A stretch of DNA of 64,000 nt. Source: Nitrospira tepida. GTDB lineage: Bacteria > Nitrospirota > Nitrospiria > Nitrospirales > Nitrospiraceae. Below the pieces are notes generated by a model, which saw only the letters and a list, made by a program, of their open reading frames with translations, was not told the origin of the DNA and searched no databases. A program made the translations under genes and the position numbers. The stretch is taken from the NCBI RefSeq assembly GCF_947241125.1, contig NZ_OX365700.1, positions 2,822,001 to 2,886,000 on the forward strand, given 5' to 3'. Position 1 is the stretch's first letter. Every line of letters starts with the position of its first letter. Below are positions 12,253 to 20,717 of this stretch, in pieces.

Positions 12253-12816
12253 ATGGATTCGCGCGACGCCTCGGTCAATCCGCGCCCGGCGCCGGATGAC
12301 GCGCCGCATCCAGCGCCGCCGCACGCATCTCAGTCATCCGACGGAGACCGGCGGGCCCGTCTCGTCCGGCGGTATGCAACCCGCGTCACGGTGGCGCTGA
12401 TGATCCTCTGTCCCGCCCTGTTCTTGTTCGGCCTCTGGGTCAGCGGCATCCGCACCGACCAGTTGTTCCGGCTTCCCGACGTGTTTCATCCAACCAGCGA
12501 TGTCTGCCTCCGGTTGGGTTGGCAACAGGTCTTAGGCAAGGACGAGCTCGTCCAGGTCTGTTCCGAGTGGATTCGCCTGGCGGATCCTTCCGGAGAAACT
12601 CACAGATTGAAGCAGGAAACGACGATACGGGAAGGAGCGGACGGCAAGCTCTATTTCGATTATGGTTCGTTGACGGATTGGCGGCTGTTCGCGTATGTCG
12701 GATTGGTGGTCGCGATCCTCGCGTTCGGGTGGTTCGTACGGCGCTACCTCGTCGCCCGATACCGTCTGCGGCTCGAATCCGCCGCCCGACAGACATCCAT
12801 CATGCATTGGTCCTAG
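12253..12816 (+). CDS. Two-helix membrane protein of unknown function
   Basis: Not recognised. In 187 residues: a proline- and histidine-rich cytoplasmic N-terminus (about 1-35), a membrane helix at about 44-62 (VTVALMILCPALFLFGLWV), a soluble middle with two cysteines (CLRLGWQQ, VQVCSEWIRL) that could pair in the periplasm, and a second helix near 143-162 followed by a basic C-terminus. It starts 30 bases after glyS with a GGAGG-like site. Its TAG stop codon is the first triplet of the structured repeat at 12814-13028. Confidence 0.7.
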   Translation: MDSRDASVNPRPAPDDAPHPAPPHASQSSDGDRRARLVRRYATRVTVALMILCPALFLFGLWVSGIRTDQLFRLPDVFHPTSDVCLRLGWQQVLGKDELVQVCSEWIRLADPSGETHRLKQETTIREGADGKLYFDYGSLTDWRLFAYVGLVVAILAFGWFVRRYLVARYRLRLESAARQTSIMHWS

Positions 12817-13028
12817 CGCGCATTATTCATGACGGTTCGTGACGAAACCGCCAAGACGCCATGCGAGACGGGCACGCGGAGCTGTGAGGAAGGAAGGCAT
12901 ACTTGAAATAGTATGTCGACCGACCGAGCGGCGAGCCTGCCCGCTTGGCTTCGGGAACCTGGCAGCCAAGCTTGTCGCAGCGGCGTATCGGCGGTTACAG
13001 TAGGAGCGGCCATGAATAATGCGCGCTA
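12814..13028 (+). repeat. 215-bp structured palindromic element, copy 1
   Basis: Bounded by a perfect 18-bp inverted repeat (12814-12831 with 13011-13028). The interior folds into nested helices: 12846-12852/12990-12996, 12856-12860/12982-12986, 12869-12874/12938-12943, hairpin 12898-12902/12911-12915, and hairpin 12944-12950/12964-12970. A second copy lies at 20501-20717 in the same orientation. Between copies paired positions change together (for example AACCGCC/GGCGGTT here, AACCACC/GGTGGTT there). The first three bases are the stop codon of the preceding gene. It lies 21 bases before the ppdK start. Nature unknown: structured RNA, MITE-like element, or both. Confidence 0.85.
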
Positions 13029-13049
13029 AGAGGGAAGGAGCACAAGACC

Positions 13050-15854
13050 GTGGGAGCCAAGAAGAAATACGTCTATTTTTTCGGCGATGGAAAGGCCGAA
13101 GGCAAGGGCGACATGAAGAACCTGCTGGGCGGCAAGGGCGCCGGCCTGGCCGAGATGACCAACCTGGGGATTTCCGTGCCGGCCGGCTTCACGATCACCA
13201 CCGAGGCCTGCGTTGAGTACTACAAGCGAGGCAAGACCTATCCGCCGGGCATGTGGGAGGAGGCGCTCCAGGCCTTGAAGCGGGTGGAGCGGTCCATGGG
13301 AGCCAAATTCGGCGATCCCGTGAATCCCTTGTTGGTGTCGGTGCGGTCCGGCGCCCGAGCCTCGATGCCCGGCATGATGGACACGGTGCTGAACGTCGGC
13401 TTGACGACCAAGACAGTCGAGGGTCTGGCGGCCAAGACCCGCAACGAACGATTTGCCCAGGACAGTTACCGGCGGTTTGTCACGATGTTCGGCAGCATCG
13501 TGATGGGCGTCACGCGCGAGCACTTCGAGGAAATCCTGGCCCATAAGAAAGCCGAGCTGGGCGTGACCCAGGATACCCATTTGGACGCGAAAGCGCTCCG
13601 CGAACTGGTGGCGAGCTTCAAGGAACTGATCCAGCACGATACCGGCGAGACCTTCCCGGACGATCCGATCGAGCAATTGCGGATGGCGACCAATGCCGTG
13701 TTTTCATCCTGGTACGGGGCGCGCGCCATCACCTACCGCAAGCTCTACAACATTCCCGATACCTGGGGCACCGCCGTCAACGTGGTCGCGATGGTGTTCG
13801 GCAACATGGGCGAAACGAGCGGCACCGGCGTGGCATTCACCAGAGATCCCTCCACCGGGGAAAAACGGTTCTTCGGCGAATGCCTGATGAACGCGCAGGG
13901 CGAGGACGTGGTCGCCGGCATCCGCACGCCGCTGCCGGTGGCCGAATTGGGAAAAACGGTCCCGCACGCCTTTCGGGACCTGGAAGCGACCTATAAGAAG
14001 CTGGAGAAACACTACCGCGACATGCTCGACATCGAGTTCACGATCCAGGAGGGCAAGCTCTACATGTTGCAGACCAGGGTCGGGAAACGGACCGGCATCG
14101 CCGCGGTCCGGATCGCCGCCGACATGGTCAGGGAAGGACTGATCACGAAGGAGGAGGCGGTCAGGCGGGTCGAGCCGGACCATCTCTCGCAATACCTTTA
14201 TCCAATCTTCGACCTGGCGGAAGAGTCCAAGCGCTCGCCGCTCGGCAAGGGCTTGCCGGCCGGGCCAGGGGCCGCCGCGGGAAAGATCGCGCTCACGCCG
14301 GATCGCGCCGTCGAAATGCAGGCGGCGGGCAACCGGGTGATCCTGGTCAGGCAGGAAACCAGCCCGGACGATATTCACGGCATGAACGCCTCGCTCGGCT
14401 TTCTCACCGCGCGCGGCGGCATGACGTCCCACGCCGCTGTCGTCGCCCGGCAGATGGGCAAGGTTTGCGTGGCCGGCTGCGAGGGCGTGGAGGTGGAGGG
14501 CAGTCAAAGCGTGCGCATCGGCAACAAAGTGTTCCGCGAGGGAGACTACCTTTCGATCAACGGATCGACCGGCAACGTCTACGAGGGCGATATTCCGGTC
14601 GTCGCGTCGGAGGTGATTCAAGTTCTGGAAGGGAAACTCGCTCCGGCTCAGTCCGACAAGTACCAGCGGTTCGAGACGATCCTGAAATGGGCGGACGAGA
14701 TCCGCTCGCTCAAGATCCGGGCCAACGCGGATGTCCCGGATCAGGCCCGCATCGCGCGCGGCTTCGGCGCGGAAGGGATCGGCCTCTGTCGTACGGAGCA
14801 CATGTTCTTCGCCGAGGACCGCATCCCGATCATGCAGAAGATGATCCTGGCCCGGTCGTCCCAGGACCGAGAACGGTACCTGGAACAACTGCTGCCGCTG
14901 CAAAAGCAGGACTTCCTCGGGCTCTACCGGGAGATGAAGGGCTACCCGGTGACGATCCGGCTGCTCGATCCGCCGTTGCACGAGTTCCTGCCGAAGCGGG
15001 AGGAACTGATGGTGGAGATCGCGAAACATGAACTGACCGGCGGCAACCCCGCGGTGCTGGAGGAGAAGCGGAAGCTGCTGGCCCGCGTCGAAGAACTGCA
15101 CGAGTTCAATCCGATGCTGGGACTCCGCGGCTGCCGACTCGGCATCACCATGCCGGAGATCACGCGCATGCAGGTGCGCGCGATCATCGAAGCCGCCTGC
15201 GAAATCGCCAAGGAAGGCAAGAAGATCGTGCCCGAGATCATGATCCCGCTCGTCGGCATGATCACGGAAATGAAGGCGCAGAAGGATCTCGTCCGCGAAG
15301 TGGCGCAAGAAACCATGAAACGGCACGGGGTCAAGCTGAACTACCTGGTCGGCACGATGATCGAGTTGCCGCGCGCGGCCGTCACCGCCGGCCAGATCGC
15401 CCAGGAAGCCGAGTTCTTCTCCTTCGGGACGAATGACCTGACACAAACCACGTTCGGATTTTCCCGCGACGATGCCGCGAAGTTCGTCGGCATCTACAAG
15501 GATCAAAAGATCCTCGACGCTGATCCCTTTGAGACGATCGACCGGGAGGGTGTCGGCGAGATGATGCGCCTGGCCATCGGAGCGGGACGCAAGACCCGAG
15601 CGGATCTCAAGCTGGGCATCTGCGGAGAGCACGGCGGCGATCCGAGATCGATTGAGTTTTGCCACCAACTGGGGCTCGACTACGTGAGCTGTTCTCCCTA
15701 CCGGGTCGCCATAGCCAGGTTGGCGGCGGCGCACTCGGCCTTGAACGGCCGGTCGGCCGGAAAGACACAGGCCAAAGAGAGAAAGAGCGGCGCGCCCGCT
15801 CGCGCCAAGACACCGGCCAGCCGTGCCAAAAAGGCGCGTGCCGCAAAGCGGTGA
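13050..15854 (+). CDS. ppdK: Pyruvate, phosphate dikinase
   Basis: Interconverts pyruvate, ATP and phosphate with PEP, AMP and pyrophosphate; links gluconeogenesis with central carbon flow. 934 residues: N-terminal ATP-grasp domain (YVYFFGDGKAEGKGDMKNLLGGKG at the start), swivelling phosphohistidine domain with GGMTSHAAVVARQMGK (the catalytic histidine follows MTS), and C-terminal TIM barrel with GTNDLTQTTFGFSRDD and the catalytic cysteine in GICGEHGGDP. The family ends near residue 890; a lysine/arginine/alanine-rich tail of about 40 residues follows. GTG start with GGAAGGAGC upstream. Directly downstream of the structured repeat. Confidence 0.96.
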   Translation: MGAKKKYVYFFGDGKAEGKGDMKNLLGGKGAGLAEMTNLGISVPAGFTITTEACVEYYKRGKTYPPGMWEEALQALKRVERSMGAKFGDPVNPLLVSVRSGARASMPGMMDTVLNVGLTTKTVEGLAAKTRNERFAQDSYRRFVTMFGSIVMGVTREHFEEILAHKKAELGVTQDTHLDAKALRELVASFKELIQHDTGETFPDDPIEQLRMATNAVFSSWYGARAITYRKLYNIPDTWGTAVNVVAMVFGNMGETSGTGVAFTRDPSTGEKRFFGECLMNAQGEDVVAGIRTPLPVAELGKTVPHAFRDLEATYKKLEKHYRDMLDIEFTIQEGKLYMLQTRVGKRTGIAAVRIAADMVREGLITKEEAVRRVEPDHLSQYLYPIFDLAEESKRSPLGKGLPAGPGAAAGKIALTPDRAVEMQAAGNRVILVRQETSPDDIHGMNASLGFLTARGGMTSHAAVVARQMGKVCVAGCEGVEVEGSQSVRIGNKVFREGDYLSINGSTGNVYEGDIPVVASEVIQVLEGKLAPAQSDKYQRFETILKWADEIRSLKIRANADVPDQARIARGFGAEGIGLCRTEHMFFAEDRIPIMQKMILARSSQDRERYLEQLLPLQKQDFLGLYREMKGYPVTIRLLDPPLHEFLPKREELMVEIAKHELTGGNPAVLEEKRKLLARVEELHEFNPMLGLRGCRLGITMPEITRMQVRAIIEAACEIAKEGKKIVPEIMIPLVGMITEMKAQKDLVREVAQETMKRHGVKLNYLVGTMIELPRAAVTAGQIAQEAEFFSFGTNDLTQTTFGFSRDDAAKFVGIYKDQKILDADPFETIDREGVGEMMRLAIGAGRKTRADLKLGICGEHGGDPRSIEFCHQLGLDYVSCSPYRVAIARLAAAHSALNGRSAGKTQAKERKSGAPARAKTPASRAKKARAAKR

Positions 15855-19871: not shown

Positions 19872-20504
19872 ATGAATCTCAAGGGCCTGATCTATCGTGA
19901 ATTGGGCGAGGGACTGACGGAAAAAGAGCTGGCGGCCGCGGTCGGTGTGTCTCCGGGAACCATCGACAGGATTCTCGCGAATAAGTCGCCGAAGGAACCG
20001 GCCGTCTGGCATCAATTCGCCAAGTACTTTCGGATGGACGCGGATTTTCTTCGGGCCGGCGCTCCAAGAAAGACGCCCGGGCGTTCCAGGAAGGCCGGCA
20101 TCGGCCCGACCGTTCCCATGAGAAAAGTTCCGTTGGTGAGTTGGGAGGCCATCGGACGAATGGCCGCGGGCGAAGCCAATGCGACCGTTCATGACAGCGA
20201 TGCGATGCTTGAGACGGACGTTCAAGGACCCCGCGCCTTTGCCCTGCGGGTGAAGGATGATTCGATGAATCCCCTCTTCGGCGAGGGCGAGATCATCTTT
20301 GTGAACCCGGATCTCGAATGTGAGCCGGGCCATTATGTCGTCGCCGGCCCGCGCCGAACTCCGGAGCAGGCGGTCTTAAGAGAACTGAGAACGATCGGAA
20401 CCCAGTATGTGCTCCATCCTCTCAATCGGCGGCGGAAGGACACCCTGCTGACCCATGACCACTTTCTGTGGGGCAGGGTGGTCCGGTTACGGAAGGATCT
20501 TTAA
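19872..20504 (+). CDS. LexA/CI-like repressor with S24 peptidase fold, catalytic lysine replaced
   Basis: Helix-turn-helix domain at about 15-60 (LTEKELAAAVGVSPGTIDRI) joined to a C-terminal S24 LexA-like domain (about 85-205). The serine nucleophile is Ser131 (KDDSMNP). The position of the general-base lysine, normally in a motif like A-T-F-K-Q-L, reads AVLREL with Arg170. If the alignment is right, RecA-induced self-cleavage would be impaired. 210 residues is normal for the family. Its stop codon is inside the stem of the second structured element. Targets are unknown; no phage genes adjoin. Confidence 0.82.
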   Translation: MNLKGLIYRELGEGLTEKELAAAVGVSPGTIDRILANKSPKEPAVWHQFAKYFRMDADFLRAGAPRKTPGRSRKAGIGPTVPMRKVPLVSWEAIGRMAAGEANATVHDSDAMLETDVQGPRAFALRVKDDSMNPLFGEGEIIFVNPDLECEPGHYVVAGPRRTPEQAVLRELRTIGTQYVLHPLNRRRKDTLLTHDHFLWGRVVRLRKDL

Positions 20505-20717
20505 CCCACATTATTCATGACGGTTCGTGACGAAACCACCAAGACGCCAAGTGAGACGGGCGCGTGGAGCCCCGAGAGGCCGAAGCGTACTTGAAACAGT
20601 ACGTTGAGGCCGCGAAGGGCGAGCCCGCCCGTTGGCATGCCGCCAAGCTGCATGCCAACTTGTCGCAGCGGCGTATCGGTGGTTGCAGTAGAAGCGCTCA
20701 TGAATAATGTGGGTTAA
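20501..20717 (+). repeat. 217-bp structured palindromic element, copy 2
   Basis: Second copy of the element at 12814-13028, same orientation. Its outer stem is a perfect 20-bp inverted repeat (20501-20520 with 20698-20717). The inner 12 bases CATTATTCATGA are shared with copy 1 but the outer arms differ (TTAACCCA here, TAGCGCG there) while staying complementary. Inner helices: 20534-20540/20678-20684, 20544-20548/20670-20674, 20557-20562/20626-20631, hairpin 20586-20590/20599-20603, hairpin 20632-20640/20650-20658. It again starts at the stop codon of the upstream gene and ends 43 bases before the next gene. Confidence 0.85.

Follow-up and report, generated by a model that had tools for sequence, protein, structure and literature searches.

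IS1380-type MITEs with direct YTAR target-site duplications and a covarying fold in Nitrospira tepida

In the window, the 64,000-nucleotide stretch of the Nitrospira tepida genome that was analysed, two copies of a 209-bp foldback element without a transposase gene lie on the forward strand, each behind the end of an upstream gene. Copy 1 (12817..13025; 227.7 bits against a covariance model) has a left terminal inverted repeat CGCGCATTATTCATG at 12817..12831, which matches the IS1380-family repeat CCYGNATNATTCAYGA, and, by comparison of the repeats, a right one on the reverse strand at 13011..13025. It is flanked on the forward strand by CTAG (12813..12816), assigned as left target-site duplication by the YTAR rule derived from 62 and 77 copies, and by CTAA (13026..13029), one change away from CTAG. 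Copy 2 (20505..20713; 233.2 bits) carries the repeat CCCACATTATTCATG at each end and lies between forward-strand TTAA duplications at 20501..20504 and 20714..20717. The RNA fold of copy 1 has a predicted energy of -117.7 kcal/mol (z -9.6). With a length of 209 bp, multiple copies, a 15-bp terminal inverted repeat and no transposase open reading frame within, the element has the features of a MITE.

An earlier note had described perfect mirror arms around a shared core. The complementarity is indeed exact, TAGCGCG at 12814-12820 pairing with CGCGCTA at 13022-13028 in copy 1 and TTAACCCA at 20501-20508 with TGGGTTAA at 20710-20717 in copy 2, but the arms are not one structure: four outer base pairs are followed inward by four bases (CCCA, CCCG, CGCG) that form the outermost part of the terminal inverted repeat CCCRCATTATTCATG. 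The element proper spans from CCCR/CGCG to the mirror of CCCR/CGCG at the other end. The outer bases TTAA and CTAG look complementary because these tetramers are palindromes; as copy 1 has CTAG as its left flank and CTAA as its right one, only seven bases match there.

The core CATTATTCATG has four exact matches in the window, where 0.28 would be expected even with one mismatch allowed, and its 11 bases recur with at most one mismatch at 195 places of the genome, one complete 4.73-Mb contig, versus three for the reversed control. Searching the genome with copy 1 gave 45 matching stretches, most of 74-100% identity, and collection by search and by position yielded at least 62 distinct bounded copies, to which 77 from other genomes were added. 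The end sequence is found in 98 of 147 genomes of the host family, which common loci and gene content suggest to be the Nitrospira family, as well as in metagenome-assembled genomes of Nitrospira and many other phyla, and Nitrospira moscoviensis has one copy (L173); matches on plasmids of Agrobacterium, Rhizobium and Pseudorhodobacter are due to chance, with no element there. Five MITE ends about 5-9 kb apart occupy one 32-kb stretch (genome positions 2315010, 2319920, 2328605, 2337386 and 2346819), and three longer variants of about 410-442 bp (L041, L059, L065) have in common an inner segment that ends with GATGAATAAAGAGCGCCATGTCTGTGCGCG.

A direct target-site duplication of the YTAR type accounts for the outer four bases. 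Flank pairs that agree only in direct orientation (TTAG..TTAG or CTAA..CTAA) occur in 11/62 copies of the genome and 11/77 copies from elsewhere, those that agree only when inverted (TTAG..CTAA) in 0/62 and 1/77, and those that agree both ways (CTAG..CTAG, TTAA..TTAA) in 23/62 and 33/77. Compared directly, the flanks have an identity of 0.79-0.92 over exactly four positions, dropping to 0.17-0.24 at the next base to either side. In the inverted comparison, complementarity amounts to 0.79-0.99 at the four tip bases and is at chance past position 8 from the core (0.24-0.34 in the 62 own copies, 0.21-0.34 in the 77 others). The flanks no longer match exactly in 28 of the 62 own copies, just under half. 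When traced on a tree built from the interiors, the duplicated bases have undergone 11-13 changes, as expected if they are reset with each insertion, while the left and right bases agree directly in 41/45 and 43/47 cases. That transposons should give direct duplications, as the earlier note had stated, is correct, and the present element does so.

Empty sites were sought in relatives at both loci. The gene downstream of copy 1 reads as pyruvate phosphate dikinase (ppdK); with the start of ppdK as query, 133 of 147 genomes proved to have the locus, and the element is absent upstream of ppdK in all 29 relatives fetched. The corresponding column reads CATAG in most of the closer relatives and CTAG in L259, the junction being CATTGACCTCATAGCAGAAGGAG in many relatives and CATTGACCTTACTAGCAGAAGGAG in L259, while the window minus the element gives CATTGGTCCTAGGAGGGAAGGAG. 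For copy 2, the empty site is ATCTTTGAAGC in L406 and L407, where the window has ATCTTTAA, the element and TTAAACC (junction compared with L406/L407: ATCTTTAAACC). These relatives belong to other genera and their flanks align at about 65-80% identity, such that the junction is not base-exact. At neither locus is the empty site a palindrome or a hairpin.

The first arm includes the upstream stop codon in both copies, as had been pointed out: the open reading frames at 12253-12816 and 19872-20504 end with TAG and TAA, respectively. In the relatives, the upstream genes of both loci have a TGA stop at, or a few bases from, the insertion point, while the window uses instead the TAG or TAA within the duplicated YTAR. 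As YTAR contains TAA or TAG, the target motif itself brings about the coincidence with the stop codon. In 15 of 29 copies, the duplication holds a stop codon, with about one third expected from frame alone, a comparison that is indicative only as it relies on naive calling of open reading frames.

Within the element, the whole 209-bp foldback covaries. Among 27 copies, both partners have changed in 32 of 66 pairs and 96.3% of 1,683 cells are paired, compared with 29-46% for slid control structures; none of 500 shuffles reached the observed covariation. Where copies diverge by less than 4%, 0% of the changed pairs are changed in both partners; this share climbs to 69% in the 24% bin and stands at 0.40 in the last one, which, by our reading, is dominated by one rearranged copy. 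Single changes therefore come first and double changes later, which argues for stepwise compensation and not for one-step copying between arms. The tips CCCA, CCCG, CGCG and CCTG occur as the same variant at both ends of a copy; the end states change several times on the interior tree and both ends tend to change together, although the pairs are too few for significance. The covarying helix considered in the earlier note holds for the inner four bases and the entire interior, but not for the outer four base pairs.

One strand folds better in 41 of 43 copies and a G-U pair is conserved within the covarying fold. These features would also be displayed if the outer stem were part of an RNA useful to the host, a terminator or 3'-end hairpin, and the copies were a dispersed regulatory RNA and not a transposon, which is also in line with copies sitting directly after stop codons. 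This reading is nevertheless unlikely, since target duplications and empty sites show transposition. Moreover, the orientation to flanking genes is balanced (10 co-directional, 11 opposed), which does not indicate a host function, and a search of positions 12500-13400 with the Rfam 15 covariance models gave no match at E<=1. Departures to G-U and A-C are similarly frequent (27 vs 20 pair-states), which likewise speaks against a host RNA and means that RNA and DNA are not separated as the selected molecule. Lineages of active copies likely keep the fold while resident copies decay.

That fold-back (template-switch) synthesis copies one flank or arm onto the other and thereby keeps the arms identical is very unlikely, and for the flanks it is rejected. 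The rare repeat variants CGCG and CCTG at both ends of one copy, and the joint shifts of the end states on the interior tree, would fit such copying. It predicts, however, the inverted-only flank pairs that are absent from the own genome and seen once elsewhere, against 11 and 11 direct-only pairs. Furthermore, close copies differ one-sidedly with double changes rising only with divergence, no tracts are changed in both arms at once below 4% divergence, and the conserved internal loops have been left unrepaired, loop columns 28-29, 172-175 and 190-192 being nearly invariant.

The fold extends beyond Nitrospira. The covariance model of the 27 copies has full-length matches of 65-104 bits in other phyla, in Krumholzibacteriia (L303), Binatota (L325, L327-L329), Acidobacteriota (L136, L159), Gammaproteobacteria (L191, L220, L225, L314) and Maribacter (Bacteroidota; L317, 35% GC), as well as in L320. 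In alignments fitted to the model, about 79-97% of the ungapped inner pairs are kept in these elements, most of which still show the apical hairpin GGCRTACT..AGTAYGTCGA. Our literature search on the core sequence, IS1380 MITEs and Nitrospira MITEs gave nothing relevant and no description of the fold. Tentatively, and at somewhat less than even probability, we consider the element a pan-phylum structured MITE of which only the ends are of the IS1380 type; its fold of about 175-210 nt, in which internal loops and an apical hairpin are conserved, would then be selected in the folded single-stranded state, as DNA or RNA, for the propagation of the element itself.

With respect to mobilisation, the element is a non-autonomous IS1380-type MITE. 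Among the open reading frames scanned inward of unpaired ends, L321 was the sole match, with a full-length PF13701 (DDE_Tnp_1_4) protein (E 2.1e-148) adjoining an exact 16/16 end (L321/L340). A PF13701 search of 28 genomes showed that most of the strong matches are adjoined by ends that score at least 12/16 and follow a YTAR-like tetramer, and two control end patterns reached 12/16 once and never 13. The transposases with MITE-like ends form one IS1380 branch of about 35-70% mutual identity, to which transposases with other ends, including the IS1380 copies of the own genome, show about 25% identity or less. A search with the Nitrospira transposase (L341), itself a match to the NCBIfam 'IS1380 family transposase' (E 4.7e-118), recovered complete elements, with lengths of 1,675-1,707 bp, from other genomes of the Nitrospira family. 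Duplications of the complete IS1380 elements are CTAG..CTAG four times, TTAG..TTAG once (L396) and ATAG..ATAG once, three further complete elements have YTAR tetramers with one or two differing bases, and the L339 element has CTAG..CTAG; the repeat CCYGNATNATTCAYGA of these IS1380-family relatives is common to the MITE ends.

In the own genome, the Nitrospira transposase has no match at E<=1e-10. The IS1380 copies present there belong only to a distant branch with the repeat CCCTATTCTCCGGCTA and a 5-bp duplication, and were rejected as partner because of wrong or absent ends. They lie at L076-L079 (genome positions 3751557, 1333097, 3139240 and 3238784), with the duplication CAAGG at L076, and a fragment at 2347338 with 99% identity to this branch lies beside a MITE. 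A cognate transposase in the same genome is not required for the membership of old copies; as the ends are those of IS1380 and the search of the genome at this threshold gave no cognate transposase, the local copies are probably stranded. Beyond the ends, the MITE interior has nothing in common with the insertion sequences found, a point against the proposed explanation that leaves descent from them by internal deletion putative.

The long core-to-core pairs L068 and L072, considered as possible seats of an autonomous partner, are actually MITEs split by an IS110-family element, and other long pairs of terminal repeats in contigs of metagenome-assembled genomes (L118, L200, L210, L290) are neighbouring MITEs with no transposase. 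The IS110-family element is the same in both MITEs (L068:1001-2347 and L072:1001-2327; genome 3809324-3810670 and 4054455-4055781) and has inserted at the same point, just past the conserved apical hairpin (after TTTCAAGTACGCCTTG), in opposite chromosomal orientation; it may target this hairpin.

It is highly improbable that IS5 or IS701, as DDE families with YTAR targets, mobilise the ends in place of IS1380. IS5 likewise duplicates YTAR (PMC10359306), the duplication of IS701 has 4 bp (PMC2266710), and the genome harbours several PF01609 insertion sequences with CTAG duplications (L233-L248), but these IS5/IS4-like elements are unrelated, with differing terminal repeats, and none has the MITE terminal repeat, no PF13546 match to IS701 was obtained, and the repeat itself is carried by IS1380 elements. 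The least credible reading, that the element inserts specifically into palindromes such as transcription terminators and that the outer arms are halves of the target, can draw on the palindromic nature of the commonest targets CTAG and TTAA (23/62 own copies) and on two more complementary bases on each side of copy 1 (TC/GA), but beyond a preference for 4-bp YTAR it is rejected, as the flanks of 139 copies are no more complementary past 4 bp than by chance, YTAR targets that are not palindromes also serve and give direct duplications, and the empty sites of relatives lack a hairpin.

We are highly confident that both copies arose by insertion of a 209-bp MITE that would be moved in trans by an IS1380-family transposase. 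The transposase would recognise only the ends of about 15 bp. The 4-bp YTAR target is duplicated directly; where it was CTAG or TTAA, the duplicated bases also form a palindrome and the flanks resemble an extended inverted repeat. The imperfect duplication of copy 1 (CTAG/CTAA) counts against this explanation, as does the loss of exact flank identity in just under half of the own copies. Copies would pile up at gene ends because YTAR contains TAA or TAG and because insertions in genes would be lost. The structure may be needed for the propagation of the element rather than for the host, and the mechanism proposed for the MITE beyond its IS1380-type ends is likewise putative.

Descriptions of bacterial MITEs usually present them as predicted hairpins, and ERIC is a short non-coding bacterial MITE of the same kind as QMITE2, SPRITE and BOX. 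The latter have terminal inverted repeats, direct duplications and a transcript predicted to fold (PMC10969869). The literature consulted gave no IS1380 link for QMITE2, ERIC, SPRITE or BOX, and, unlike in these, the present fold has stepwise compensatory change and is common to several phyla. The terminal repeat CCYGNATNATTCAYGA and the YTAR duplication are those of autonomous relatives in the IS1380 family (ISfinder; PF13701, NCBIfam NF033539), from which the MITE differs by the lack of a transposase and by its structured, unrelated interior; IS1247, a published member, has 1,672 bp and a 5-bp duplication (PMC3281130). By analogy, the 4-bp TTAA-type duplication and the CCC start of the repeat may be likened to the piggyBac superfamily, which, unlike the present element, is eukaryotic; piggyBac duplicates TTAA with the variants TTAG and CTAA, its repeats often begin with CCC, and IS1380 transposases serve as outgroup in piggyBac trees (PMC10813416).

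Cumulatively, the puzzle of the arms is solved by ordinary rules of transposition and does not point to a new mechanism of targeting or copying. What remains novel is a widespread family of structured MITEs whose whole fold evolves by compensatory change, and the age gradient, with single changes followed by double ones, makes the need of the hairpin for the spread of the MITE testable.
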